Below are positions 1 through 15,543 of a DNA stretch of 20,255 nt, in pieces. Both the position numbers and the translations under genes were made by a program. The stretch covers positions 1 to 20,255 of IMG/VR virus record IMGVR_UViG_3300042445_002676. One strand, given 5' to 3'. This DNA comes from a virus. The notes under the pieces were generated by a model. That model was not told where the DNA came from. It saw nothing but the letters and a program-made list of their open reading frames with translations, and ran no database searches. Numbering within the stretch: the first letter of the stretch is position 1; every line of letters begins with the position of its first letter.

Positions 1-35
1 TTCCACCCGACCGTATTTTTGTCAGAAAGGTATTG

Positions 36-64
36 GGGCAAGCTCGCAAGGGCTTGCCCTTTTT
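36..64 (+). terminator. rho-independent terminator
   Basis: A perfect 8-bp stem, GGGCAAGC at 36-43 against GCTTGCCC at 52-59, closes an 8-base loop and is followed by TTTTT at 60-64. It should end rightward transcription arriving from before the window. No stop codon occurs in any plus-strand frame between base 1 and the stem, so bases 1-35 look intergenic rather than the tail of a gene. Confidence 0.85.
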
Positions 65-69
65 GCATT

Positions 70-77
70 TATAAATA
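70..77 (+). promoter_or_regulatory. T4-type late promoter (TATAAATA)
   Basis: The octamer is an exact match to the T4 late promoter core recognised by the gp55 sigma factor with the gp45 sliding clamp. It lies directly after the terminator and about 35 bases before the ATG at 112, so it would start a fresh late transcript with a leader of roughly 30 bases. Confidence 0.8.
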
Positions 78-111: not shown

Positions 112-1590
112 ATGTTTTCATTTTCACAATACTTGACAGAAAAGAAGGATCTTGGCGGACTTTCTACTAATGAAGCAGGAAAGTTGCACGAAGTTCTATT
201 AGGTGGGCTAGTCCATCACTACGCCCAAGAATACCAGAAGAACAAATCTTTGGGTCATAAAAAGGCTCATGAGGCTGCATTGGCTGCTATTAGCAACCCT
301 AAGAGAGTTAAAGGCAGTTATATGTATGATATTACGCATATGCCTCAGTTCAAGGACGTAGATAATAAAACTGCTAAACAGTTGCATGATGAATTTGGTT
401 CTAAACTTTCATCGGAAAAATACCATGATAGTTATTTACATGCGCTTCATGGCGCATCACATTTAATAGATCATCTTCACAAAAATGGTATCAAAGATAT
501 TAAAGGTGTTCATTTTACTGCAAACAAAAAAGACATTAACAGATTGCCTGGATATGAAAATATAGAAGATAAGAAAAATAATTCAGATATTGTTGTTGAA
601 CATGGTCACAAGGGAAGATATTTTGGTGTAAGTTTGAAATCAGGAAAAGAATCAAAATTAAACAATCCTGGTATGGGTCCGTTGAGAAAATTTATAGATG
701 AATATCATCAAAAAATAACAGGTAAAAAAGGAACTTTTGGGGTTGACGCATTAAATGCAGAAAATGCTGCTAAACAAGCTCATTTGGGTATTCTTAATAA
801 AAATAAATCGTTTTTAAATAAACATTTTGGCGAAAATGGAATAACATTACCTGGCCATATCAAAACAAATAAAGAAGGTAATTTAGAATTAAGCGAAGAT
901 GCTTTTAGATATTTAGAAAAAGCAGAGCCAGCAAAAGAAGACAAATATGCTCACATGTATTCCGACCCCAAAACAAGAAAACAATTTCAAGATTTGTATG
1001 CAAATCTAAGAGATTCTAGAACAGAAACTGCTAAGAGAGCTACAAACGCTTCTATGTCAAAACATTTACAAAATATTTTTGCTCAACAAAAAGATCCTTC
1101 TAAACATGAAGCGATTAGAGAATTTATGAAGAAGTTTTATAACATTGGTAGACAAGAAGGGCAAATGCCTGTTGTGAGATTAAATACTGCTAAAAATACT
1201 GCAGCAGCTGTCAAAAAAGGTGCACCAGAAAGATTCTCTACAATCTCTGATGCAGAATCAGATTTTGATAAAGGTTTTGATTCTTCAATTGGTAATTATA
1301 AAATTACCAGCAATCCAGGAACTATTAATACAACAATATCTTCTCCCACTGGCCATAATACCAGTTTGGTAGTTGACTCATCGCCAGCTGGTGGTGGTAG
1401 TATGGTAAATAGAGCTGGCGTTCACGTTTGGGATAAATCAGAACATGGCGTAGAACCACCGTCAGTCCCTGCATCAGCACCAGTAAAAAGATCTAAGCCA
1501 GTAAGCACAAGGGTTGCACCAAACGGTTATCCAGAGCACATGCATCAAGCGCATAAAGATTCAACATATATGGGGCATCAGGACATATGA
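112..1590 (+). CDS. probable internal head protein, possible PD-(D/E)XK-like nuclease
   Basis: A protein of 492 residues. The frame is open further upstream, through the terminator and promoter, but the ATG at 112 has GGGGA six bases before it and is the sensible start. It begins MFSFSQYLTE, which fits the T4 capsid-targeting pattern F-x-x-Y-L-x-E that is cut after the Glu by the prohead protease. Around residues 145-190 a hydrophobic strand SDIVVEH is followed by YFGVSLKSGKES; D159 and S174-x-K176 are spaced like a PD-(D/E)XK nuclease core. I recall cyanophage proteins with the same head-type N-terminus and a similar D...SxK block followed by NPG, as here. The C-terminal 150 residues are Ser/Pro/Thr-rich and look unstructured. 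It is the first gene of the late transcript and its stop overlaps the next ATG. The coding call is certain. Head packaging is likely. Nuclease activity is a weak inference. Confidence 0.85.
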   Translation: MFSFSQYLTEKKDLGGLSTNEAGKLHEVLLGGLVHHYAQEYQKNKSLGHKKAHEAALAAISNPKRVKGSYMYDITHMPQFKDVDNKTAKQLHDEFGSKLSSEKYHDSYLHALHGASHLIDHLHKNGIKDIKGVHFTANKKDINRLPGYENIEDKKNNSDIVVEHGHKGRYFGVSLKSGKESKLNNPGMGPLRKFIDEYHQKITGKKGTFGVDALNAENAAKQAHLGILNKNKSFLNKHFGENGITLPGHIKTNKEGNLELSEDAFRYLEKAEPAKEDKYAHMYSDPKTRKQFQDLYANLRDSRTETAKRATNASMSKHLQNIFAQQKDPSKHEAIREFMKKFYNIGRQEGQMPVVRLNTAKNTAAAVKKGAPERFSTISDAESDFDKGFDSSIGNYKITSNPGTINTTISSPTGHNTSLVVDSSPAGGGSMVNRAGVHVWDKSEHGVEPPSVPASAPVKRSKPVSTRVAPNGYPEHMHQAHKDSTYMGHQDI

Positions 1591-2816
1591 GAATAGATTT
1601 CAAAACATTCCTTTCAGAACAAGCCGAAGCTCCAGAAGGCAAGGCATTGAAGCATTTAACACACGTCGAAGATCATGTTATTCATAATGGACATGAAGGA
1701 GTTGCTACAGCGGATGAACATCTTCGTGGCATGCATGACATGTTGTTAGGAAAAAGATCTAAACTACATGCTTCTACAAAATATGATGGAGCTCCGTCAA
1801 TTGTATTTGGTATTCACCCTGAAACTGGTCAGCCTTTCGTAGCTTCTAAATCAGCGTTTAATAAAACGCCAAAGATTAATTATAGCGATGAGGACATTGA
1901 AAACAACCACGGTCATGCTCCTGGATTAGTTGATAAGCTAAAACACGCATTGCGTCATCTTCCAAATATCTTGCCACGAGAAGGCGGTGTTTATCAAGGC
2001 GATCTAATGCACACAGAAGGCGATGCTGTTGAAAAAGATGGCAAAACTTCTGTAACTCCTAATACGCTTTCGTATTCTGCTGATAGTAATTCACCAGAAG
2101 GTAGAAATATGTTCAAAAAATTGGGCATTGTTGTTCATACAAAATATTCTGGACGTGGCGGTTTGGGTAGCATGTCAGCGCAACCACTAGACGATAAAAC
2201 ACGTGCTAAGTTCAGGGATCATCCGGATGTTAATAACATTGATCCTACTATAGATGTAAATGCATCAAACTATACACCGCTTGAACAAAAAGCGTTTCTC
2301 AATCATATGGAGAAAGCTAAAAGAGTTTACGCTTCTATGAAACCAGAGGCAATGGATGCGGTTTCTGGGCACGGAGCTAATTTAGAAGCTCATGTGAATA
2401 ACATGATTAGAACTGGCGGTGATCCGTCAGTTCAAGGATATATGGATCATTTGACTGCACGTCATCAGAAAGATCTAGAAAAAGTTAAAACTGAAGCAGC
2501 CAGACAAAAGAGAATACAGGCTCATGGCGAAATGCTTTCTCACATTAGTAATAATAGAGATCATTTCGATAAAGTGTTAAAGCTACACGGTCATCTTCAA
2601 AACGCTAAAAATGTATTAGTCGGTGTTCTAGCAAAGAACTCTCCATATGAGCATAGCGTTGCAGGAGAACATACTGGTCCAGAAGGAACAGTAGTAGTTG
2701 ATAAACAGGGCAATGCTTCTAAGTTTAATAATAGAAGAGAATTCAACCGCCTAAATTTCTTGAAAGGCGCATTCCAGAAACAGCAGGTAGCAAATGCAGA
2801 AGCTCAACTTCAGTAA
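1587..2816 (+). CDS. DUF6267-like protein with ligase-type KYDG motif, probable internal head protein
   Basis: A protein of 409 residues starting in an ATGA overlap with the previous stop. It begins MRIDFKTFLSE, another capsid-targeting-like peptide with a predicted cut after E11. Residues 65-68 are K-Y-D-G inside STKYDGAPSIVFG, which resembles motif I (KxDG) of ATP-dependent nucleic-acid ligases and capping enzymes. Further possible ligase-fold elements are GVYQGDLMH (134-142, motif III position), TPNTLSYSA (157-165) and GIVVHTKYSG (180-189, a possible motif V with K186). T4-like marine phages carry a family with the same KxDGAP, GTKSVFNK-like and NT..Y blocks; I believe this is DUF6267, but the accession is from memory. 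The C-terminal 200 residues are charged and helical. If the Lys is adenylylated, a joining or capping role on nucleic acid follows; this is untested inference. Confidence 0.85.
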   Translation: MRIDFKTFLSEQAEAPEGKALKHLTHVEDHVIHNGHEGVATADEHLRGMHDMLLGKRSKLHASTKYDGAPSIVFGIHPETGQPFVASKSAFNKTPKINYSDEDIENNHGHAPGLVDKLKHALRHLPNILPREGGVYQGDLMHTEGDAVEKDGKTSVTPNTLSYSADSNSPEGRNMFKKLGIVVHTKYSGRGGLGSMSAQPLDDKTRAKFRDHPDVNNIDPTIDVNASNYTPLEQKAFLNHMEKAKRVYASMKPEAMDAVSGHGANLEAHVNNMIRTGGDPSVQGYMDHLTARHQKDLEKVKTEAARQKRIQAHGEMLSHISNNRDHFDKVLKLHGHLQNAKNVLVGVLAKNSPYEHSVAGEHTGPEGTVVVDKQGNASKFNNRREFNRLNFLKGAFQKQQVANAEAQLQ

Positions 2817-3717
2817 TTATCTAATAGAGTCTGATCGTTCAACTCATGTTATGACATTTATGAGAGCCAATCCACCAACGATTGGTCATGAACGTGTGGT
2901 GAATCATGTTATGGATCTTGCTAAAAATTTAGACGCTGGTCATAGCATAGTTCTTTCACACTCTTTTGATGGTGATAAGAATCCATTAACAGGTGAACAA
3001 AAGTTGAGACACGCTAAATTGGCATTTCCCGGAGCTAATGTATCAACTTCTTCTCCGGAACGACCTAACATTATGAATCATGTTTCTGACCTTTATGGTA
3101 AGGGCGTGAGAAACTTACACGTTGTAGTGGGTCAAGATAGAGTTGATCAGTTCAACAAACTATTAAATCAATATAAGGGTATTAATGGCCCACATGGTCA
3201 TTATGGTACTGATATGAATATTACAGTTCATTCTGCTGGCGGGCGTGACCCTGACGCTGAAGGTGTAGAGGGCGTTTCCGGAACTGGTCAAAGAATTCAT
3301 GCAAGAAACAATAATTTTGAAGGATTCCGTGCAGGCGCACCAAGTCGTATGACTGATGAACAAGCAGCTTCGCTTATGAATGATATTCGTAACGCACAAC
3401 CTCCAGCAAAACCAGTAAAACCAGCTAAAAAGAAGTTAAAAGAAGAAACAGTTGCTGGTGGTGAAATGGTAAGAGGATTTGGTGATGTTTCTGGTAATCC
3501 AGCAGTTCAAGATAATCCTTTACAACAATATATTGGCGCTAATGCTTTGGCAAAAGATAAACAAAACGGCGCATTAATGAAGATGATGAAAGACAGTCAG
3601 CACAATTTGATTGGGTTTAAAGAATTTAATCCTCATAAAAATACTAGGGATAAAACTCTAGCTTACTATGAAGAAGACCCAAATGGCGATTATTTAAAAA
3701 ATAGAAAGAAAAAGTAA
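2794..3717 (+). CDS. HxGH-type nucleotidyltransferase (cytidylyltransferase/NMNAT-like), probable internal head protein
   Basis: A protein of 307 residues whose start lies 23 bases inside the preceding gene. The first residues, MQKLNFSNYLIE, form a capsid-targeting-like peptide. After it comes a Rossmann-like nucleotidyltransferase domain (about 17-175): FMRANPPTIGH carries the T-x-G-H form of the HxGH signature at 29-32, LHVVVGQDRVDQF is the central strand, and VSGTGQR near 162-168 matches the final (I/V)S(S/G)Txx(R) motif. This superfamily moves a nucleotidyl group from CTP or ATP to a small phosphate (glycerol-3-P, pantetheine-P, NMN, FMN); the substrate cannot be read here. The last 80 residues (GGEMVRGFGDVSGNP, MKDSQHNLIGFKEFNPHK) form a separate module that I recall in many phage proteins. 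It sits in a late operon between likely virion proteins, so it is probably packaged and injected. Confidence 0.88.
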   Translation: MQKLNFSNYLIESDRSTHVMTFMRANPPTIGHERVVNHVMDLAKNLDAGHSIVLSHSFDGDKNPLTGEQKLRHAKLAFPGANVSTSSPERPNIMNHVSDLYGKGVRNLHVVVGQDRVDQFNKLLNQYKGINGPHGHYGTDMNITVHSAGGRDPDAEGVEGVSGTGQRIHARNNNFEGFRAGAPSRMTDEQAASLMNDIRNAQPPAKPVKPAKKKLKEETVAGGEMVRGFGDVSGNPAVQDNPLQQYIGANALAKDKQNGALMKMMKDSQHNLIGFKEFNPHKNTRDKTLAYYEEDPNGDYLKNRKKK

Positions 3718-5030
3718 TGGCACAGTTTCGTAAAGATACACATCAATTTTTAGGCGATAATAAAACTCTTTTTGAAGTTGTGCAAATTGCTGATCAATAT
3801 GGAAATATGGTTGGCGCTGCCAATCCTTCTGGAGTTGCTGTTGATGCTTTTGGTAGAGCCAGAGTTTCAACCCCTTTAACACTTTTTGATTCTTCTCATC
3901 GTTATCGCGATAATAACTTGTGGTCGACTTCAAACACTGCTGGTGGAACTTATGCTTTTTCTACCAATGAAGGTCTTGTAAATCTAAACGTATCAACAGC
4001 AAATAATGCAGAAATTATTCGTGAAACAACTAAAGTGTTTTCTTATCAGCCTGGTAAATCATTACAAATTCTACAGACATTTGTTATGCAACCAAAGGCA
4101 AATGTTCGTCAGCGTGTAGGATATTATGGCGCTAACAATGGTATCTATTTTGAGTTGGTAGGTAATACAGCATATTTGGTCGAAAGATCTTTATCAACAG
4201 GAGTAATGCAAGAGACAAGAGTAGCACAGTCTGATTGGAATATGGACACTCTGTTGGGTCAGGTCGCTTCAAGTCCATCTGGCATAACTTTGGATTTAAC
4301 CAAAGCCCAAATTATGTTCATTGATATTGAATGGCTTGGTTTAGGTACAGTAAGATGTGGTTTTGTTATTGACGGTAAATTCATTCACTGTCATTCCTTT
4401 CACCATGCTAATTTTGTTACCACAACATATATGACCACAGCATCTCTTCCATTGAGATATGAAATTAAAAATACAGGCGTAACTGCAAGTAATACAACTC
4501 TAAAACAAGTATGTTCCACTGTTATTTCTGAAGGCGGATATGAACTAAGAGGTCTTCAACAAGCAGTTGGAACAGCTATTGGGGCGCCAAGAGATTTGAC
4601 AACAGTTAATACATACTATCCAGTTGTCTCAATTAGATTGAAGGCTTCTCCAGATAGACTTGACGGTATTGTTATTCTTACTGCTTTATCATTAATAGCA
4701 ATAACCAACAATGCTAATTATAATTGGAGAGTTGTAGCTTCTGGCGCAACTACAGGCGGAACATGGGTTTCTGCAGGAGATGATTCTGCTGTTGAATATA
4801 ATATTACAGGAACAAGTTTCGCTGGTGGTAGAATTTTGGCTTCTGGATGGACTAATGGTTCTAATCAGGGTTCAAGTCCTGTTGATATTTTAAAAGAAGC
4901 ACTATTCAAGTTTCAGTTAGAAAGAAACGGTCTAACTTCTAGTTCTTATGAGTTAACATTAGTTGCTGCAGCAGATTCTGCGGGCGCTGATATATACGCA
5001 TCTATGGATTGGGAAGAAATCTCAAGATAA
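3717..5030 (+). CDS. phage virion structural protein
   Basis: A protein of 437 residues beginning in a TAATG overlap with the nucleotidyltransferase gene. It is beta-rich, with many Ser/Thr/Gly/Asn residues and no membrane segment. The central DIEWLGLGTVRCGFVIDGK and FHHAN stretch (roughly residues 203-238) is a block I recall from structural proteins of T4-like marine phages and other large tailed phages. The opening is also typical of virion proteins (QIADQYGNMVG, VDAFGRARVSTPLTLFDS). No capsid-targeting peptide is seen, so it is more likely an outer or tail-associated part than an internal one. Its exact place in the particle is unknown. It closes the first late operon. Confidence 0.8.
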   Translation: MAQFRKDTHQFLGDNKTLFEVVQIADQYGNMVGAANPSGVAVDAFGRARVSTPLTLFDSSHRYRDNNLWSTSNTAGGTYAFSTNEGLVNLNVSTANNAEIIRETTKVFSYQPGKSLQILQTFVMQPKANVRQRVGYYGANNGIYFELVGNTAYLVERSLSTGVMQETRVAQSDWNMDTLLGQVASSPSGITLDLTKAQIMFIDIEWLGLGTVRCGFVIDGKFIHCHSFHHANFVTTTYMTTASLPLRYEIKNTGVTASNTTLKQVCSTVISEGGYELRGLQQAVGTAIGAPRDLTTVNTYYPVVSIRLKASPDRLDGIVILTALSLIAITNNANYNWRVVASGATTGGTWVSAGDDSAVEYNITGTSFAGGRILASGWTNGSNQGSSPVDILKEALFKFQLERNGLTSSSYELTLVAAADSAGADIYASMDWEEISR

Positions 5031-5037
5031 GATCTTT

Positions 5038-5045
5038 TATAAATA
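5038..5045 (+). promoter_or_regulatory. T4-type late promoter (TATAAATA)
   Basis: An exact TATAAATA in the only sizeable gap of the left half, just after the stop of the structural gene. It is 71 bases from the octamer end to the ATG at 5116, giving a leader of about 65 bases, longer than at the first late promoter. It would drive the Dps and low-complexity protein block. Confidence 0.8.
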
Positions 5046-5115: not shown

Positions 5116-5883
5116 ATGAAAAAGTTTAATTCATTTGAAACTCAGCTAGGCGAGTCTGTCGTACTCACTGACAAGGCCAAATTATCCCTTTATAAAAAAT
5201 CCCAAAATTCAGGTTACTCAGTCGATATTCTTGAAGAAGTATATCGTAGAGGTTATAATTGCTGGACCGAATCATTCGGCGGCAATGCGAATTCATTTGC
5301 ATTCGATAGAGTAAATTCATTCATTGCAGGAGGTTTCGCTGTGGAACTAGACGAAGATCTTAAAAAAGCATGCTGGAAAGGTTATGAAGCCGTTGGCATG
5401 AAGATGAAAAACGGTAAAAAAGTTCCAAACTGCGTCCCTGTAAAAGAAGAAGATGCGGAAAAACATTCAACAGATTCAGAGGATCCAACTTCAAGATTTA
5501 TTGGTTCTGACGAATTAGTTGCTATCTATAAAAAAGAAACTCCTGGCCAAATTGTTAAAAGAGTAGTTCGTGAAGCAATTGAAATTGTTGATGCTATGGA
5601 CGAACTTGAAGAAGATTGGCAGGATTCAAAATATAAGAACCCAACAGGCGGTTTAACAAAGGCTGGTGTCATGGCATATCGTCGTGAAAATCCAGGTTCA
5701 AAGTTACAAACAGCAGTTACAACTAAGCCTTCTAAACTAAAGAAGGGAAGCAAGGCGTATAATCGCCGTAAGTCATTCTGCGCTCGTATGGGTGGCATGA
5801 AGAAGAGACTTACATCTGCTAAGACTGCAAGAGATCCAGATTCAAGAATCAACAAAGCACTACGTAAGTGGAACTGCGAGTAA
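5116..5883 (+). CDS. modular phage protein (DUF5824-like and DUF6321-like segments)
   Basis: A protein of 255 residues, first gene behind the second late promoter, with GGGAAAC-type upstream sequence before the ATG. Three blocks are visible. Residues about 30-85 (GYSVDILEEVYRRGYNCW and ARVNSFI-like DRVNSFIAGG) resemble the small family I know as DUF5824. Residues about 90-115 carry ACWKGYEAVGMKMKNGKK followed by VPNCVPV, a motif common in phage head-region proteins. The C-terminus (about 172-255) has KNPTGGLTKAGVMAYRRENP, PSKLKKGSKA, RRKSFCARMGGMK and a final ALRKWNC, a cassette usually listed as DUF6321. Family numbers are from memory. The first residues, MKKFNSFETQLGE, contain an L-x-E that could be a prohead protease site. 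Basic C-terminus (many Lys/Arg) suggests nucleic-acid contact. Function unknown. Confidence 0.82.
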   Translation: MKKFNSFETQLGESVVLTDKAKLSLYKKSQNSGYSVDILEEVYRRGYNCWTESFGGNANSFAFDRVNSFIAGGFAVELDEDLKKACWKGYEAVGMKMKNGKKVPNCVPVKEEDAEKHSTDSEDPTSRFIGSDELVAIYKKETPGQIVKRVVREAIEIVDAMDELEEDWQDSKYKNPTGGLTKAGVMAYRRENPGSKLQTAVTTKPSKLKKGSKAYNRRKSFCARMGGMKKRLTSAKTARDPDSRINKALRKWNCE

Positions 5884-5895
5884 GGAATTAATCAA

Positions 5896-6807
5896 ATGGA
5901 CCAGAGACATATAGACATTATTAAGAAAGTCATCAAAGAAATAGCAATGGACATGCCTCCGCAGATCGAGCGTCCATCAATTACTCGTGCTGCTCCTCAG
6001 AGACAGTTTAGTCGTTCAGTTACAACTAGCGGAAGAATGGGTTCTGGCGCAGGAGCAATGCGTGGTGGCGTTCAGGTTCAAAGAGCCGCACCTGCAAGAC
6101 CAGTTTCTGCTAGAATGAATGCTTCTCAGGGCGGATCATTGAAAGTTTCTTCAACAAACGTTCCTGCAAGAGCAGCCCCACCAGCCCCACCATCAGGAAG
6201 AATGGTAGGCACAGGTGGTTCTATGAGCGTAAAGCCAACCGTTACTAATAGAGGAATGGAAGCATCAAAGTTTTCTGTTCAAAAGGGAATGTCTGCAGCT
6301 GGTAGAGAAGCAGGTGAGAAAGCAGCATCAAAAATTATTCCAGCTGCAGCTGAAAAGGTTGCTGGCGGTGTATTAGGAAAGATTGCTAAAACAGCAATGG
6401 GTCCTGCTGCTGGCGCTGCTATGGCAGTTATGGAACCAACTCCAGCTGGCGAAAAGATGTCAGAGTTCCAGAGACAGGATGTTATGAAGAAGTATAACCC
6501 ATTCAAGTCTCAGGGTCGTTCTATTGATGATTATGAAAAGCAGCAGGTAACACGCAAATCAGCTAGTGCTCCAACAGCTGCAGAAGCACCAAGACCAAAG
6601 GTTGATGCTCCAACTCCACCATCAAGACCAGAATATTTCTCACGTGGTCAGGCATTCCAGGCTGCTAGAGCAGAAAAAGGTGGTGCAGGTGGTAAGTTTG
6701 AATATGGTGGTAAAGAATTCCAGACTAACGTTAAGAGCGAACCATACGTTAAGTCACCAACTGCTACAAGCGTAAAGAGCGAAACTGAATCAGGAAAGAA
6801 AAAATAA
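5896..6807 (+). CDS. Ala/Pro/Arg-rich low-complexity protein with FxxAFxxAR module
   Basis: A protein of 303 residues, 12 bases after the previous stop, with AAGGAA before the ATG. Most of it is low-complexity (Ala, Pro, Ser, Arg, Met, Gly) and strongly basic, typical of disordered DNA-associated virion proteins. An Ala/Gly-rich stretch near residues 130-180 (AAGREAGEKAASKIIPAAAE, GPAAGAAMAVM) could be helical or membrane-active. Near residues 247-280 there is a compact module, GQAFQAARAEKGGAGGKFEY then GGKEFQTN, repeated in the 794-residue protein at 9034. The N-terminus includes VIKE (I-x-E), a possible protease cut point. It ends KSETESGKKK, similar to ESGGKK tails in neighbours. No enzyme motif was found. 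Confidence 0.8.
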   Translation: MDQRHIDIIKKVIKEIAMDMPPQIERPSITRAAPQRQFSRSVTTSGRMGSGAGAMRGGVQVQRAAPARPVSARMNASQGGSLKVSSTNVPARAAPPAPPSGRMVGTGGSMSVKPTVTNRGMEASKFSVQKGMSAAGREAGEKAASKIIPAAAEKVAGGVLGKIAKTAMGPAAGAAMAVMEPTPAGEKMSEFQRQDVMKKYNPFKSQGRSIDDYEKQQVTRKSASAPTAAEAPRPKVDAPTPPSRPEYFSRGQAFQAARAEKGGAGGKFEYGGKEFQTNVKSEPYVKSPTATSVKSETESGKKK

Positions 6808-7253
6808 TGATTGGCAAGATTGAACCAGTTGAAGCATTAAAGGTAGCATTAGCTGACACATACGTGTTTGCTGTAAAGGCTCAGCATTATCACTGGAATG
6901 TAACAGGTCCGCATTTCTCTGATTACCATGCTTTCTTTGGTGCTTTGTATGCAGAGTTAAATCCTGCAATAGATTTAATTGCTGAATCTATTAGAACATT
7001 TGATGCATTTTCTCCTGGTTCTATGAAAAGATTTTTAGAACTAACAACTATTGAAGAAGCAACTAATATTCCTGATGGTCTAGTTATGATCAGCAAGCTT
7101 GCTTCTGATAACGAAAGAGTTATTGCTTCTCTTACTTCTGCATACGAATTATGTGAAAAGCATAAACATTACGCTGTATCAAATATGTTACAGGATCGTC
7201 TAACTGCTCATCAGAAGCATGGTTGGATGCTAAGATCGTTTATAAAGGCATAA
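6807..7253 (+). CDS. dps: Dps-like ferritin-family protein
   Basis: A protein of 148 residues, starting in a TAATG overlap. The Dps signature is clear: QHYHWNVTGPHFSDYHAFF followed by YAELNPAIDLIAESIR. Dps proteins form dodecameric shells that oxidise Fe(II) with H2O2 and may bind DNA. Mapping the inter-subunit ferroxidase ligands of E. coli Dps (H51, H63, D67, D78, E82) gives H29, H41, G45, D56 and E60, so four of five are kept and the acidic residue at the D67 position is Gly. The N-terminal tail is short and lacks the Lys-rich DNA-binding extension of E. coli Dps. Length is normal for the family. The gene is embedded among low-complexity virion-type genes and should be transcribed late with them. 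No L/I-x-E site is present near its N-terminus, so packaging by the same signal is not supported. Family call is strong; catalytic competence is open. Confidence 0.92.
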   Translation: MIGKIEPVEALKVALADTYVFAVKAQHYHWNVTGPHFSDYHAFFGALYAELNPAIDLIAESIRTFDAFSPGSMKRFLELTTIEEATNIPDGLVMISKLASDNERVIASLTSAYELCEKHKHYAVSNMLQDRLTAHQKHGWMLRSFIKA

Positions 7254-9033: not shown

Positions 9034-11418
9034 ATGTCTGACAAAAAAACAATTCAAGAAGCTCTTGCTGAAGTTCAAAGAAATGCAGAACTTATGGAAG
9101 CGCCAAACGTTTTTAAGCTATTTGGTCGTGGTGCAGCAAAAGTTCCAAAATCAGCACCAATACGCCCTATGCCGCATGGCGGAGAAGATCTGGTTGGTAA
9201 AGCAAAACAGGCTCCAAAGGAACCACCAACAATTGATCTTAAGGCAGAAAAGCCAAAAACAACAACACCTAATGTCCCTGAAGCTCCAAAATCAACTATC
9301 AAAGATTTTGGTAAAGCTGTTGCTGGAGCTGGACTTGCAGCTGGTGCAGGTTATGCTGGTTATAATGCATTCACTAAAGGAGCAGTCAATCCTCCTACTG
9401 AAAAGTTTACAAAGGACGAGCCGAAAGCAGAAAAGCCAAAGGCAGCTGAAACACCAAAAGCTCCAGAAGCTGCAAAACCACAAACTTTTGGTCAGGCGTT
9501 TGCTGCTGCTCGTAAGGCTGCTGAAGCAAAAGGCGCAAAGACATCTGGTCAGTTTGAATTCCAAGGTAAGAAATATCAGACAAACCTTCAAGGAACAGGA
9601 ACTACTAAAAAGCCACAAGAAAAATATGTTTCTATGAGCAAACAGACAAAGGTTGACGTAAGTGCGCCAAAGGCAGCAGCAACTCCTACAGTCACAAAAA
9701 CACCTGAAACTCCAAAGCCAGCTGAAACATCAAAGGCTCCAGAAGCATCACAAACTTCCCCAGCACCAAAGGCTCCAGAAGCTCTAGGTAAAACTATTGG
9801 TTCTTTGATGAGAGGAAATGTCTCTAGAGCAGGAGAAGGTGCTAAGGAATGGGTTTCAGCTGTTTCAACAAGCAGTAGCAGAGCTTGGAACAAAACAGCA
9901 GACGCCTTCGATCCAAAGGGCGCAGAATCAGAAAGCGGATATTCTAAAAAAGGAAAAACTAAAATGTCAGAAGAAAACGAAATTAATGAAGCAATGCCTT
10001 TACCACCACGTCGTCCAGGGCAAACTGGTAGCTCTATGATCCAGAGAGGAGATACTTTATCTTCTCTTAGTAAGAGATCTGGACTTTCTGTTGCTGATAT
10101 TATGAAACAAAACCCAAATATCAAAGATCCTAACAAAATTAGTGCTGGCGCTTCAATTAACTTACAGAAGCCAGAGCAAAAAACTGTTTGGAAAGATCCA
10201 GTTTCTGCTGGTTATGATAAACCAGCACAAACAACTACTACAAGCCCAAATACAACTAAGTCTTGGGATTCTGATATTCCAAAAATTGATAAAGGGCCAA
10301 CTACTTCTGCAGCGCCCACACCAACACCTGCTCCATCCACATCAAGTAGTTCATCAATGCTTTCTGGAACTCCAGTAGCACAACAGAGAACACTAGAAAA
10401 AGAAAGTGGTGGTAAGAAAAAAGTGGCAGAAGAAAATAGCCCACTAATTGCAGCATTCCTAGACCTACAGGCTAAGAACCCAGCAAACATGTTCGAAGCT
10501 GCTAAGAAGGCTAAGAAAGACTATGACCGTGACGGCAAGGTAGAGTCACCAAAGGACGAAGTTTGGGGTTCACGTTTCCGTGCTGCTAAGGCAGCTGGTA
10601 AGATGGCGGAAGGCGTAAAGGCTGATCCAAACGATCCTTCATATCAGGGTGGTGGTGATGTAACATCTACACCTGAAAAGAAAACTTCTATGCCAAAGCC
10701 AACTGCTCCTAAGACTGATTCATCAGTTCAAGGTTCAGGCGATGTCACTATGAATGGCAAGCCAACAAGAGTTAAGGAAGAAGTTACTTTCTCACAGGCA
10801 GAAATCGACCATATTAACTCTTTTTTTCTTGAAGCCTCTGTAGCACCAAATAGACCTGAAGTCGCTATAGGGGCAGATTCTACTTCAGATAAGATGTCAC
10901 AGAACGATGTTACTGCGACAGCTGAAAGTGGTAAGAAAATCAGAAAAGAAGAAGTTGAAGTTGATGAAGGATACGGAAACACTCCTTCTGTTCGTTCATT
11001 TGGTCATGATCCGCTTTCAGGCGGTCGTGGTCGTCCAAGAACAGATGTTGCCACTAAAGGCGAAAGAAAGGGTATGGTAAAAAAGTCCACTCAGGATTCA
11101 ATGAAGCGTAGAATTGCTGACCGTCTTGGTTCGCATGCTAAGGCAAATCTACCAGAAGAAACTCTTGAAGAAGGTCGCCCAAAGAAGAACCCAACACCTG
11201 AAACAACTGAACGTGATCCACGTAAGCATATTCAGGTAGAGGCAGGGCGTGCTGCTGCTGGTAACGTTGTTGACTTTACTCACAATGATGGTTCGAGATC
11301 AAAGATTACACCAGCAATGGGTAGAAAAATTGTTTCTCATCTTCAGGGTCTAAAGCCAGCTGATCGTCAGACAGCTGTTAATAAAATGCATGATAGCGCA
11401 GAAGGACTAAAGGTCTGA
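9034..11418 (+). CDS. large low-complexity virion protein with LysM domain and AT-hook-like motifs
   Basis: A protein of 794 residues with AGAGGAT upstream of the ATG. The N-terminus contains several L/I-x-E sites (TIQE, ALAE, ELME). Residues about 90-115 form an Ala/Gly hydrophobic segment (GAGLAAGAGYAGYNAF). The GQAFAAARK...FEFQGKKYQTN module at about 152-186 matches one in the 5896 protein. Residues about 335-379 are a LysM domain (IQRGDTLSSLSKRSGLSV, IMKQNPNIKDPNKI, GASINL), which usually binds peptidoglycan or chitin GlcNAc. KKDYDRDGKVESPKDEVWGS near 495 is a block common in phage internal proteins and superficially like a calcium loop. GGRGRPR near 664 has the RGRP AT-hook core and EEGRPKK near 710 is a weaker one. 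The last 65 residues (HIQVEAGRAAAGNVVDF, GRKIVSHLQGLKPADRQ) form a conserved-looking domain. Linkers are Pro/Ala/Lys repeats. Probably a virion protein; which side of the capsid is unknown. Confidence 0.82.
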   Translation: MSDKKTIQEALAEVQRNAELMEAPNVFKLFGRGAAKVPKSAPIRPMPHGGEDLVGKAKQAPKEPPTIDLKAEKPKTTTPNVPEAPKSTIKDFGKAVAGAGLAAGAGYAGYNAFTKGAVNPPTEKFTKDEPKAEKPKAAETPKAPEAAKPQTFGQAFAAARKAAEAKGAKTSGQFEFQGKKYQTNLQGTGTTKKPQEKYVSMSKQTKVDVSAPKAAATPTVTKTPETPKPAETSKAPEASQTSPAPKAPEALGKTIGSLMRGNVSRAGEGAKEWVSAVSTSSSRAWNKTADAFDPKGAESESGYSKKGKTKMSEENEINEAMPLPPRRPGQTGSSMIQRGDTLSSLSKRSGLSVADIMKQNPNIKDPNKISAGASINLQKPEQKTVWKDPVSAGYDKPAQTTTTSPNTTKSWDSDIPKIDKGPTTSAAPTPTPAPSTSSSSSMLSGTPVAQQRTLEKESGGKKKVAEENSPLIAAFLDLQAKNPANMFEAAKKAKKDYDRDGKVESPKDEVWGSRFRAAKAAGKMAEGVKADPNDPSYQGGGDVTSTPEKKTSMPKPTAPKTDSSVQGSGDVTMNGKPTRVKEEVTFSQAEIDHINSFFLEASVAPNRPEVAIGADSTSDKMSQNDVTATAESGKKIRKEEVEVDEGYGNTPSVRSFGHDPLSGGRGRPRTDVATKGERKGMVKKSTQDSMKRRIADRLGSHAKANLPEETLEEGRPKKNPTPETTERDPRKHIQVEAGRAAAGNVVDFTHNDGSRSKITPAMGRKIVSHLQGLKPADRQTAVNKMHDSAEGLKV

Positions 11419-12593: not shown

Positions 12594-12982
12594 TGAATGA
12601 AAATTTGACTGATAAAAATTTTTTATTATATTGCGCTTCACATTATGATAACGCAAGATATGTTTCTACTGAAGATTTTTTAGAAGATCTTAATAGATTA
12701 AAATATATTAAAAAATTAATTACAAGATATACTGAATATGGTGAGTTGAAAGAACGTTTGATACTTAACCATATTATTATTTTAAATAATTGTTTTGGAC
12801 CTGAGGTTCTTTGTAAAATTTTATATTTAAAAATGAAACCTCAGATGAAATACATTAAACCTTTTTTGATAATGCTTAACATATTACCAGATTATATTTA
12901 CAATGTAAATAATGAAAAAACAATTGACACAAATTTAATTGAAATGGATGCAAAAATTGTCGCAAAACTAAGGGAAGTTTAA
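12593..12982 (+). CDS. conserved T4-like phage protein (DUF7207-like)
   Basis: A protein of 129 residues starting in a TAATG overlap. The text NENLTDKNFLLYCASHYDN, then EDLNRLKYIKKLITRY, GELKERLILNHIIILNN and CFG is very close to a family I recall in many T4-like phages, which I believe is DUF7207. It is alpha-helical, with a hydrophobic C-terminal half but no clear membrane helix. Its function is unknown. The fixed company of virion genes and the metallopeptidase downstream suggests assembly or late regulation. Base composition is markedly more AT-rich than its neighbours. Confidence 0.82.
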   Translation: MNENLTDKNFLLYCASHYDNARYVSTEDFLEDLNRLKYIKKLITRYTEYGELKERLILNHIIILNNCFGPEVLCKILYLKMKPQMKYIKPFLIMLNILPDYIYNVNNEKTIDTNLIEMDAKIVAKLREV

Positions 12983-13548
12983 TGCAAAGTATAATAAAAC
13001 AATTAGAAAACTTTGTAAAGTTTGCGGCAAAAGAAATAAACCTTACAAAACTACCAAAGATTCATTTCGTAGGTAAGTCACAAAATTCAAAAGCAGCCTT
13101 CGGTCATTCTAATGGCAACGAAATATATGTTCGTATAACAGAGCGCCATCCTGGCGACATTATGCGCACTATTGCCCACGAGCTTATTCATATTAAGCAA
13201 ACACAGATGGGTAAAAAAGGCGAACAATACAGAGAAGACGAAGCTAACGCTATAGCAGGAAGAGTAATGAGAAAATTTAATACAACCTACCCTAGCGTAT
13301 TTAATCAAAAACCAACTTCATCAAACATCGCAGAGACTGAATCTCTTATGCCAGCCAACGTAATGGGATCCGGTGGTCCAGGTGCTGGTATTCAAACCTA
13401 TAGTCCATTGATTGATATGGACAGAGGCAATAAAAAATTCAACCCTATGTCAGCTCTATACAAAAAGAAGAAGCTAAGAGACATTGTTGGTCTTAAAGCT
13501 GCGTTCAAGAGAGAACGTAGAGCAGAAACAAGGAAAGATCAGAACTAA
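12982..13548 (+). CDS. zinc metallopeptidase-like protein (HExxH)
   Basis: A protein of 188 residues beginning at the last base of the previous stop. TIAHELIHIKQTQMGKK holds the HELIH zinc site (about residues 66-70), and EDEANAIAGRVMRKF supplies a likely third ligand Glu near residue 88, the arrangement of SprT/IrrE-like gluzincins. The preceding NEIYVRITERHPGDIMRTI is also typical of phage members of this family. Such proteins recur next to head genes in T4-like phages; the substrate is not known. The C-terminal 70 residues (ESLMPANVMGSGGPGAGIQ, then a basic KKKKLRDIVGLKAAFKRERR tail) are non-catalytic and may anchor it to nucleic acid or to the virion. Family call is strong, role is open. 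Confidence 0.85.
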   Translation: MQSIIKQLENFVKFAAKEINLTKLPKIHFVGKSQNSKAAFGHSNGNEIYVRITERHPGDIMRTIAHELIHIKQTQMGKKGEQYREDEANAIAGRVMRKFNTTYPSVFNQKPTSSNIAETESLMPANVMGSGGPGAGIQTYSPLIDMDRGNKKFNPMSALYKKKKLRDIVGLKAAFKRERRAETRKDQN

Positions 13549-13999: not shown

Positions 14000-15022
14000 A
14001 TGGATTGGCTGGCTCACAAGTATATCGGTATTATTTCTACTCGTTTAGAAAAGTTTAAACGTAAGGGTCCAAACCTTTACAACTTCCGCTGTCCTGTATG
14101 CGGGGATTCCGAAAGTCATCAGAATAAAGCACGAGGATACATCTACCAGAAGGATGGCAAGATGTTGTTCCATTGTCACAACTGTAATGCTACAATGGGA
14201 ATTCCCAACTTTATTAAGATGCTTGATGTCAACTTATATAATGAGTATCAGTTAGAAAAGCTGGCTGATAAGAAAACGCCTGAGCAAGATGATTACGAAA
14301 AGTTCGTAGAGAAAATGCGGAAGCCAGTTTATATGACTTCCGGACCATTGAAAGGATTGAAGAAAGTATCTCAGCTTTCGCCATTTGATCCAATCAAAAA
14401 GTTTGTTGTGGAGAGAAAGATACCTAATGTATATCACGCCAAGTTATTTGCATGTCCTAATTTTAAGCATTTTACTAATAATTTGGTTCCCAACAAGTTT
14501 TCAGCTGAGTCTCTGGCTAAAGATGAGACAAGACTTCTTATCCCTTTTCTTGATAGTAATAAGACTGTTCATGCCTTCCAAGGGAGAACGTTGGGATCTT
14601 CAACAGTTAAATATATTACAATTGTTCTTAATCAATCAATACCTAAACTTTATGGCTTGGACACTGTTGATCGTAACAGAATTATTCCTGTCCTTGAAGG
14701 TCCGATTGACAGTATGTTTGTTCCTAATAGTATTGCTACTGCTGGAGGTGATCTCGTTAGTGCAGTAACAGATTTTGATAAATCTAGGTTGACAATTGTG
14801 TATGATAATGAGAAATATTCTAAAGAGACCGTTAAGAAAATGGAAAAGGCTATTCTTAATGGTTACTCTGTGTGTATTTGGCCCGATAATTTAGATCAAA
14901 AAGATATTAACGATATGGTTTTATCTGGTATGAGTTCTGAATTTATTGAACATATTATCAAAACTAACACCTATCGTGATTTACCGGCACAATTAAGGTT
15001 GAATCAGTGGAAGAGAGTTTAG
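14000..15022 (+). CDS. 61: DNA primase, T4 gp61-like
   Basis: A protein of 340 residues, nearly identical in length to T4 gp61 (342). It makes short RNA primers for lagging-strand synthesis together with the replicative helicase (gp41 in T4). A zinc-binding domain lies at about 29-58: [12 protein letters not shown] and FHCHNCN give the C-x2-C...C-x2-C set. The TOPRIM catalytic core includes [11 protein letters not shown] (Glu near 231), TAGGDL, and [10 protein letters not shown] (Asp near 266), followed by [16 protein letters not shown]. The C-terminal [18 protein letters not shown] looks like the native end of this family. GAGGA precedes the ATG at 7 bases. The last 59 bases overlap, on the other strand, the end of a homing endonuclease gene. 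Confidence 0.93.
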
Positions 15023-15485
15023 ATTTCTTTGATGCTGAGATTTTTGCTTTATGTTCTTCGGACATAGGACCACGAGGGCCAGTTTTTACGCCTTTGTTCC
15101 AAGCAGGTCTTCCTTTCATTCGAAGCGAGTGAGCAGGATTTTTGCCTCTTCTAGAAGCGTATTTTTTAATACGATCTTCTATGCTATACGGACCATATGG
15201 ACCCACAGGACCGGATCTGACAGGCGGCATATCTCCTCCTTCAGTTTTATTATGGAGAACACCATTGTTTAAATCTTTTCTGCCATACCATCTGATATAT
15301 CTGCGTTCTAATGCTAAGGCGCCAATTTCTGTTAAATTGCTCTCTAAGAATACAATTTTGGATTTGTCTTTTGGAACAGAAACACCATGTTGTTTGGAGA
15401 AAGCTCTTTTATCTTTTCCCTTACCAATGTAATATGGAGTATTATCTGATGATCTTAGGTAGGCGTATACGTAATAAATATTCAT
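14964..15485 (-). CDS. GIY-YIG homing endonuclease with NUMOD3 motif
   Basis: A protein of 173 residues from the ATG at 15485, chosen because GAGGAG lies 8 bases upstream on the minus strand; an in-frame start 14 codons earlier lacks such a site. Residues 3-13 ([11 protein letters not shown]) and 18-24 (YYIGKGK) are the GIY and YIG motifs, and [17 protein letters not shown] followed by NKTEGGD holds the conserved Arg and Glu of the catalytic domain. Near the C-terminus, [20 protein letters not shown] and [10 protein letters not shown] form a NUMOD3 DNA-binding module. These enzymes cut alleles that lack them and spread by repair. It is the only minus-strand gene here and is free-standing, with no intron seen. 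Its last 18 codons are antisense to the primase end. Confidence 0.92.
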
Positions 15486-15501
15486 GCTGTCGCTCCTCTT
15501 T

Positions 15502-15543
15502 AGCGGTAGAGTAGGTAGAGACTGCAATCTCGTGACCTACGCT
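15502..15543 (+). other. imperfect hairpin upstream of homing endonuclease
   Basis: GTAGGT (15511-15516) pairs with ACCTAC (15535-15540), GAGA (15518-15521) with TCTC (15528-15531), and AGC (15502-15504) with GCT (15541-15543). On the minus strand it falls in the leader of the endonuclease transcript. It has faint tRNA-like text but cannot be folded as a tRNA. Confidence 0.4.

Follow-up and report, generated by a model that had tools for sequence, protein, structure and literature searches.

The window analysed here is a 20,255-base virus record (IMGVR_UViG_3300042445_002676), classed as linear, that opens with four tightly packed genes on the plus strand, g1 to g4, preceded by a hairpin and a promoter core. 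The first three encode, in order, a restriction-endonuclease-like candidate cargo protein (g1, 112..1590, 492 amino acids), an RNA-ligase-like nucleotidyltransferase of family DUF6267 (g2, 1587..2816, 409 amino acids) and an NMNAT/cytidylyltransferase-like protein (g3, 2794..3717, 307 amino acids), and each begins with a short leader resembling the capsid-targeting sequence (CTS) of T4 internal proteins. The fourth, g4 (3717..5030), lies in the same block and encodes a virion structural protein (phrog_1645, head and packaging, E 8.8e-155). We propose, with a probability of about 70%, that the phage is a T4-like relative of the Kyanoviridae with g1 to g3 as its late-expressed cargo, and that their products would be docked in the prohead, cleaved, injected and used for counter-defence.

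The reading frames and N-termini of the three genes are as first described, with overlaps of 4 nucleotides between g1 and g2 and 23 nucleotides between g2 and g3. The longest open reading frame (ORF) of g1 begins with a TTG at position 19; relatives begin at the leader ATG (112). A terminator-like hairpin (35..60, plus strand; 11-pair stem with 7 G-C pairs and a T-rich tail) ends the preceding unit, and just past it stands a T4-type late-promoter core, TATAAATA (70..77, plus strand), whose first base is 42 nucleotides 5' of the g1 ATG. A second copy (5038..5045, plus strand) precedes the next gene after g4. The core is not rare as such, occurring four times on the two strands of the window against a mean of 1.31 in shuffled sequences, 7 of 100 of which held at least four. 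Its position is more telling: of 22 related loci, 11 have an exact core that starts 29-46 nucleotides 5' of the g1-slot start, against a background of 94 of 3,853 windows of 150 nucleotides in the same loci (3 of the 22 typed starts are not on an ATG). This placement would fit late transcription of g1 to g3. The three-gene order also recurs in relatives, a check named in the original prediction, with 41 of 51 upstream ORFs joining g1 by single linkage.

The leaders are MFSFSQYLTE in g1 (112..141), MRIDFKTFLSE in g2 (1587..1619) and MQKLNFSNYLIE in g3 (2794..2829), all on the plus strand, with predicted mature starts at KKDLGG, QAEAPE and SDRSTH, respectively; residues 1-21 of the g2 model have pLDDT values below 50. 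According to passages of PMC9026906, what T4 IPIII needs for packaging is its first 10 residues, and in the T4 CTS targeting depends mainly on residues 4 and 7 and processing on residues 8 and 10. Each of the three leaders shows an aromatic residue, a second aromatic three positions on, then L, and E two further on. The T4 spacing (aromatics at 4 and 7, L or I at 8, E at 10) is exact in g1, shifted by one in g2 and by two in g3, such that the claimed match to the T4 CTS holds residue by residue.

To follow the leader through relatives we fetched 73 loci with g2 as the query, 12 with g1 and 21 with g3, and added two further scans. The scans retain the best 80 matches, mostly to leader-bearing queries, and the fractions given here describe that part of each family. 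Searching the first four ATGs of each ORF, with ORFs cut by contig ends included, we found a strict leader in 78 of 103 distinct g2 (DUF6267) relatives, 51 of 108 g3-family relatives and 29 of 82 g1-slot relatives, against 41 of 1,021 among other ORFs of at least 100 codons in those loci, several of which resemble real leaders. After the two additional scans, 82 of 101 distinct DUF6267 N-termini were strict, 11 loose and 8 without a leader. Conservation of the pattern positions themselves is by construction; the first aromatic residue, however, is F in all 78 matched DUF6267 leaders, although the pattern also allows Y and W. In the loci fetched with g1, g2 and g3, leaders are kept down to 28% identity, with one clear exception (L070), in which both the g2 and the g3 protein lack one. 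Conservation of the leader is thus well beyond chance.

The cleanest evidence for selection on the tag comes from an alignment of five g3 relatives from cyanophages, with 40-47% identity to the first. Here M1, F4, F7, E10 and A11 are invariant, and no other column is so until the start of the catalytic domain at residue 111 (numbering of the first sequence); the linker between leader and catalytic domain varies in sequence and runs from about 25 to about 100 residues. Fifteen ORFs carry g2 and g3 as a fusion; 14 have complete starts, each with one strict N-terminal leader, and the remaining one is truncated at the end of its contig. A full leader is absent from all 12 distinct joints between the two parts, and one joint (L037) retains the remnant SESFLAEG. 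Because the fusion is repeated, it suggests that the two proteins work as one module. In Methylophilales phage Melnitz, a cultured isolate, the g1-slot, DUF6267 and NMNAT-like proteins all begin with leaders, that of the NMNAT-like protein being weak (MKKFSEIIEA). In a census of three long related records, using a loose expression for which about one chance match per record is expected, each record had g1, g2 and another conserved ORF with a leader.

Published virion proteomes of cyanophages bear directly on packaging. Four leader-bearing relatives of g3 are reported as virion proteins by mass spectrometry: T4-GC190 of S-SM1 (PMC3037559), gp154 of S-CREM2 (PMC10665884), ORF91 (S-SCSM1_91) of S-SCSM1 (PMC9602691) and S-SZBM1_140, in the virion list of PMC9146016. 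The S-SM1 T4-GC190 protein, MKKFSAFLNEAER, has the leader. In S-CREM2 the association extends beyond this family. Its authors list six non-structural virion proteins, two of which are endolysins (a passage of PMC10665884). The remaining four, gp6 (MKDFDSFLEE), gp12 (FASFMAE at residues 19-25), gp14 (VKRFDAFLTE) and gp154 (MKNFSSFLTE), are all tagged, as is the further virion protein gp136 (MQTFSMFFSE), and gp13, also in the virion, has a loose form (MKDLHSFLTE). The leader-bearing gp6 is a SAM lyase (PF23780, E 2.3e-19), an anti-restriction type of enzyme. Conversely, the DUF6267 proteins S-CREM2 gp87 and S-SZBM1_141 have no leader and are absent from the published virion lists. The label of gp12 (L123:7704-10313, minus strand), annotated as Cas9, looks doubtful; we dropped the idea of a real Cas9 in S-CREM2 virions, the protein having no Pfam match at E 0.1. 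A separate nucleotidyltransferase-like protein (G001, L103:16737-17477; phrog_36119) has MHNFSEFIAE near its start, and its S-CREM2 homologue gp156 (L121:22013-22726), whose start is shorter, was identified in virions by mass spectrometry.

We asked how well the tag predicts virion proteins, counting pattern matches only where they coincide with an annotated start and taking virion totals from the papers (52 of 219 coding sequences for S-CREM2, and 45 of 282 and 30 of 218 for the others; the S-SCSM1 record itself flags 48). With a T4-derived pattern and three phages pooled, 6 of 11 annotated matches are virion proteins versus 121 of 708 other coding sequences (p 0.006). The figures for S-CREM2 alone are 4 of 5 versus 48 of 214 (p 0.012). 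Regular-expression tests covered 216 of the 219 S-CREM2 coding sequences (gp131, gp132 and gp181 omitted; gp85 and gp130 represented by N-terminal parts): a first expression matched 4 of 51 virion proteins versus 2 of 165 others (p 0.029), and a looser one matched 5 in each class (p 0.058). When S-CREM2 is removed the pooled p of 0.006 becomes 0.22 (2 of 6 versus 73 of 494), so that as a statistical predictor of virion proteins the tag depends mainly on that phage.

Several further observations weigh against packaging by way of the leader. The patterns were tuned after the S-CREM2 N-termini were known, which makes the p-values optimistic, and a weight matrix built from clade leaders did not separate the S-CREM2 classes (2 of 26 virion proteins versus 2 of 165, p 0.09). 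S-SCSM1_90 is flagged as a virion protein and has no leader, and pattern matches also occur outside the virion lists (S-CREM2 gp30, S-SCSM1_30, and S-SZBM1_3, _191 and _192). Many cyanophage g2 proteins and some g3 proteins lack the leader, and we found no virion data on the phage of the window itself, on g1 or on any g2 with a leader. Folded proteins of about 400-490 amino acids would, moreover, need to pass the portal. According to a passage of PMC3037559, an earlier study of S-PM2 virions did not detect T4-GC190, and the authors of the S-CREM2 and S-SCSM1 studies allow for carry-over in caesium chloride preparations (passages of PMC10665884 and PMC9602691). These last two points are what would be expected if the leader were a conserved N-terminal element of late intracellular enzymes and their detection in virions were contamination. 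We consider this very unlikely. The leader is common to three different folds, natural leaderless copies exist, its residues are the sole invariant columns before the catalytic domain in the five aligned cyanophage proteins, and the g3 family appears in four published virion proteomes. Packaging is, in our assessment, well supported by the relatives.

A gp21-family prohead protease (PF03420, above cut-off) is present in 3 of 10 related records, which are mostly fragments; the 20-kb window holds no PF03420 protease. The capsid proteins of this group contain, about 55 residues in, stretches that resemble the leader ends, LLTE-A in S-CREM2 and TLTE-T in three clade records. We take this stretch to be the region of the T4 gp23 cut. 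T4 gp23 is described in PMC9958956, in the passage concerned, as losing 65 N-terminal residues. The leader could alternatively be a docking peptide for the tail, neck, outer head or scaffold, with neither gp21 cleavage nor injection. No processed N-terminus was seen in any source consulted, the neighbouring g4 is a virion structural gene, and S-SZBM1_191 and _192, which bear leaders and lie beside head genes, are absent from the mature virion list, as degraded core proteins would be. We nevertheless judge a pure docking role unlikely. The position-by-position match to the T4 CTS includes the (L/I)-x-E cut site, LTE is found in the major capsid protein as well, and the cargo with a recognisable fold is enzyme-like. 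The original reading of the leader as a capsid-targeting tag gains support from four sides, namely conservation of the residues that matter in T4 genetics, virion mass spectrometry of g3 relatives, a gp21-type protease in the clade and the single leader of the fused proteins.

The three proteins had been described as three enzyme-like folds. For g2 this description is borne out by motifs and predicted structure. The protein is a DUF6267 member (PF19782, E 1e-83), a family present in 470 of 50,697 phage records. In an alignment of 30 sequences the residues K65, D67 and G68 of motif I (K65-Y-D67-G68, 1779..1790, plus strand) are invariant, as are Q137xD139 and all four residues of a motif IV/V-like segment, E366-G367 to K379-x3-R383 (2682..2735, plus strand). 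From general knowledge we take Q137xD139, E366G367 and K379 to be ligase motifs III, IV and V. The g2 model, built on the same 30-sequence alignment, has a pLDDT of 87.3. Its top row in VIA-align is Naegleria RNA ligase, with Z 8.1 over 183 residues; as values of 7-8 are common for models without a true match, this score does not by itself favour the assignment. A Foldseek search of the PDB with the model likewise speaks against it, giving nothing under E 0.001 (best E 0.23), and sequence searches of the PDB with g2 or g3, as single sequences or profiles, found no useful relative. The RNA-ligase reading instead rests on the invariant motifs and on the consistency of the rows: 20 of the first 21 are RNA or tRNA ligases and the other is a putative ATP-dependent DNA ligase, and the 50 rows listed comprise 48 polynucleotide ligases and 2 chains of end-joining complexes. 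By motifs and predicted structure, g2 fits RNA ligases. An NAD-dependent LigA-type mechanism, attractive because of the fusion of g2 to an NMNAT-like protein, was dropped; the 50 structural rows include no such entry, which is not an exclusion.

Family searches identify g3 as a nucleotidyltransferase, its PHROG matches being to cytidylyltransferases (phrog_3041, E 9e-46; phrog_395, E 1.8e-30). The HxGH motif originally ascribed to it proved to be T-x-G-H in the window's own protein (PTIGH; T29-I-G-H32, 2878..2889, plus strand); HxGH itself is present in relatives. Among 29 aligned sequences P27, H32, S162 and R167 are invariant, conforming to (H/T)xGH and S-x-x-x-x-R. We take these to be NMNAT-type motifs, which also occur in other dinucleotide-forming transferases. 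The window protein has no Pfam match and falls below the cut-off of NCBIfam TIGR00125; CTP_transf_like is found on 12 of the 29 aligned members, and 3 of 5 relatives from cyanophages match TIGR00482 weakly (E 1e-5 at best; no cut-offs given). Of the several dinucleotide-forming activities that such motifs could serve, NMNAT is probably the likeliest.

The assignment of g1 has moderate model confidence. Searches of Pfam, PHROGs, NCBIfam, PADLOC and PDB sequences yielded no meaningful match, and at E 0.01 the phage collection contained none for g1 or for one divergent g1-slot relative. An AlphaFold model built on a 12-sequence alignment (pLDDT 71.7, pTM 0.57) returned HinP1I (Z 9.0 and 7.9) and MspI (Z 6.9) as its leading VIA-align rows, followed by a drop to 4.2 at row 4. 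The candidate core, D159 ... GVSLK176 (586..639, plus strand), is PD-(D/E)XK-like: D159, K176 and E27 are invariant in the 12 aligned sequences, and two residues before K176, where the motif would have its second acid, stands S or T. For the comparison we assumed the HinP1I and MspI active sites from general knowledge. Against a nuclease stand the moderate quality of the model, the missing second acid, the closeness of structural Z values of about 8-9 to those of models without a true match and the absence of any Foldseek match in the PDB under E 0.001. We thus describe g1 as nuclease-like at that moderate confidence.

The g1 slot is variable. Identity to g1 is often as low as 21-26% among aligned members, the slot is occupied by other proteins in some marine relatives, and divergent occupants keep the tag (MLGFQNYITE, MINFSQFLVE, MLKFNDYLTE). 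A g1 profile gave no significant match to the same-slot proteins of S-SCSM1, S-SM1, S-SZBM1, Melnitz and HTVC008M, and we do not claim homology to them; the short alignments fall on GVSLK in S-SCSM1_90, a D...K stretch in S-SM1, the leader in Melnitz and unrelated places in S-SZBM1 and HTVC008M. In BFVD, g1 matches two 276-residue cyanophage proteins suggestively (E 0.012 and 0.21) and three uncultured-phage proteins better (E 2e-11 to 3e-8), the latter with no function. A C-terminal tail of g1, APNGYPEHMHQAHKDSTYMGHQDI (1516-1587), is common to several otherwise divergent g1-slot proteins and is possibly a second targeting or processing signal, or a common interaction tail.

These features suggest the following course of events. 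Late in infection, g1 to g3 would be made alongside the capsid proteins, and their leaders of 10-12 residues would dock them to the prohead core, as in the T4 internal proteins. A gp21-type protease would then cut after (L/I)-x-E, and the mature proteins would ride in the DNA-filled head and enter the next host with the DNA. There g2 would most likely seal RNA broken by host defence nucleases, g3 would keep NAD or a related dinucleotide supplied, and the fast-evolving g1 may cut host or rival DNA or interfere with host restriction. Counter-defence at entry is our best guess for the role of the set and probably the most economical one. In a passage of PMC9503650, NAD-linked proteins are described as often packaged in myovirus virions and RNA repair is tied to the use of NAD; neither NMNAT nor DUF6267 is mentioned in the main text of that paper.

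A packaged set could also repair the incoming phage DNA or reprogram metabolism, with a nuclease, a nick-sealing ligase and an NAD supply as its parts. The ligase fold covers DNA ligases, which make up most of rows 22-50 for g2, and other tagged proteins look metabolic. They include an adenylate kinase (L281:1261-1860; PF00406, E 3e-41) with the leader MKRFKSYIKEE and NTP_transf_2 proteins; an AAA_33/Zeta-toxin-like protein and a nucleotidyltransferase are likewise tagged in the flanks. Set against this, the best structural rows of g2 are RNA ligases, the g1 slot, whose proteins diverge under a leader that stays constant, has the look of an arms race, and the tagged SAM lyase in S-CREM2 virions points to counter-defence. 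We regard repair or metabolic reprogramming as possible, at odds well short of even, and continue to favour counter-defence. Tentatively, and still with less than even confidence, we extend the proposal to the Kyanoviridae and related aquatic phages, in which one short N-terminal code may serve as a general delivery system that brings varying enzymes into the head and whose core cargo here would be an injected RNA-sealing and NAD module of DUF6267 and NMNAT proteins, in some cases fused.

If g2 acts as proposed, a virion-delivered RNA ligase working before phage gene expression would be a new injected counter-defence, and if the cargo is injected, aquatic phages would provide the cell with RNA repair, a supply of NAD and proteins of nuclease-like type ahead of transcription. 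The tag would also offer an explanation for the presence of NMNAT-like proteins, kinases and SAM lyases in the virions of cyanophages, for which published studies had left packaging and contamination as alternatives. It should predict cargo from sequence, making it a testable code, and DUF6267 would gain a fold and a testable activity.

Other genes of the window include one that may belong to the set. A DUF6321 protein (5116..5883, plus strand; PF19846, E 1.5e-18) begins with a degenerate leader, MKKFNSFETQLGE, and is possibly a fourth packaged protein; another DUF6321 protein (L252:5191-5823) has the full leader MKSFTDYLNE. Inside the same gene block lie a Ferritin/Dps-like protein (6807-7253; PF00210, E 1.7e-23) and a compositionally biased protein of 794 amino acids with one LysM domain (9034-11418; PF01476, E 3e-9). 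A weak M78-type metalloprotease match (E 0.006) is found at 12982-13548, and the same weak match (E 0.007) in a family with leaders that in other loci lies directly 5' of DUF6267 (L237:3012-3998). A possible GIY-YIG homing endonuclease (14964-15527, minus strand), recognised by eye from YYIGKGK and without a Pfam match, lies beside a primase-like gene that likewise has no Pfam match.

Compared with known enzymes, g2 shares with the RNA ligases (Naegleria RNA ligase, REL1, Trl1, T4 Rnl1 and Rnl2) the nucleotidyltransferase fold and the KxDG, E-G and K-R motifs, and differs from them in its 11-14% identity, a long helical stretch (231-350) before the E-G strand and the N-terminal tag. The g1 model aligns over 227 residues with HinP1I (chain of 247) and 224 with MspI (chain of 262), at only 9-11% identity and with an S/T-x-K core, extra regions and a packaging tag. 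The virion NMNAT-like proteins of cyanophages (T4-GC190, gp154, ORF91 and S-SZBM1_140) all carry the leader, and the three that were compared show homology to g3 at 33-35% identity (E 1e-26 to 4e-19). In contrast, the published passages name no targeting tag for them, and the DUF6267 proteins of S-CREM2, S-SZBM1 and S-SM1 lack a leader at their annotated starts. A literature search found no paper that names DUF6267, and among the matches listed (titles and abstract starts) no title concerned cyanophage capsid-targeting tags.

The closest parallel is the T4 internal-protein system, with which the locus shares a leader of about 10 residues, a late-type promoter and, in the clade, a gp21-family protease. 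Enzymes as cargo have a precedent in T4 Alt, an NAD-using ADP-ribosyltransferase (passages of PMC9026906, PMC9958956 and PMC9503650), and a passage of PMC9026906 already suggests that by means of the CTS phages of this type can package a variety of proteins. Unlike in T4, the cargo here is restriction-enzyme-like, RNA-ligase-like and NMNAT-like, and its genes stand in a row or are partly fused. New here are the set of cargo proteins and its fusion, the interpretation of DUF6267 as RNA-ligase-like and the range of enzyme families that carry the tag.

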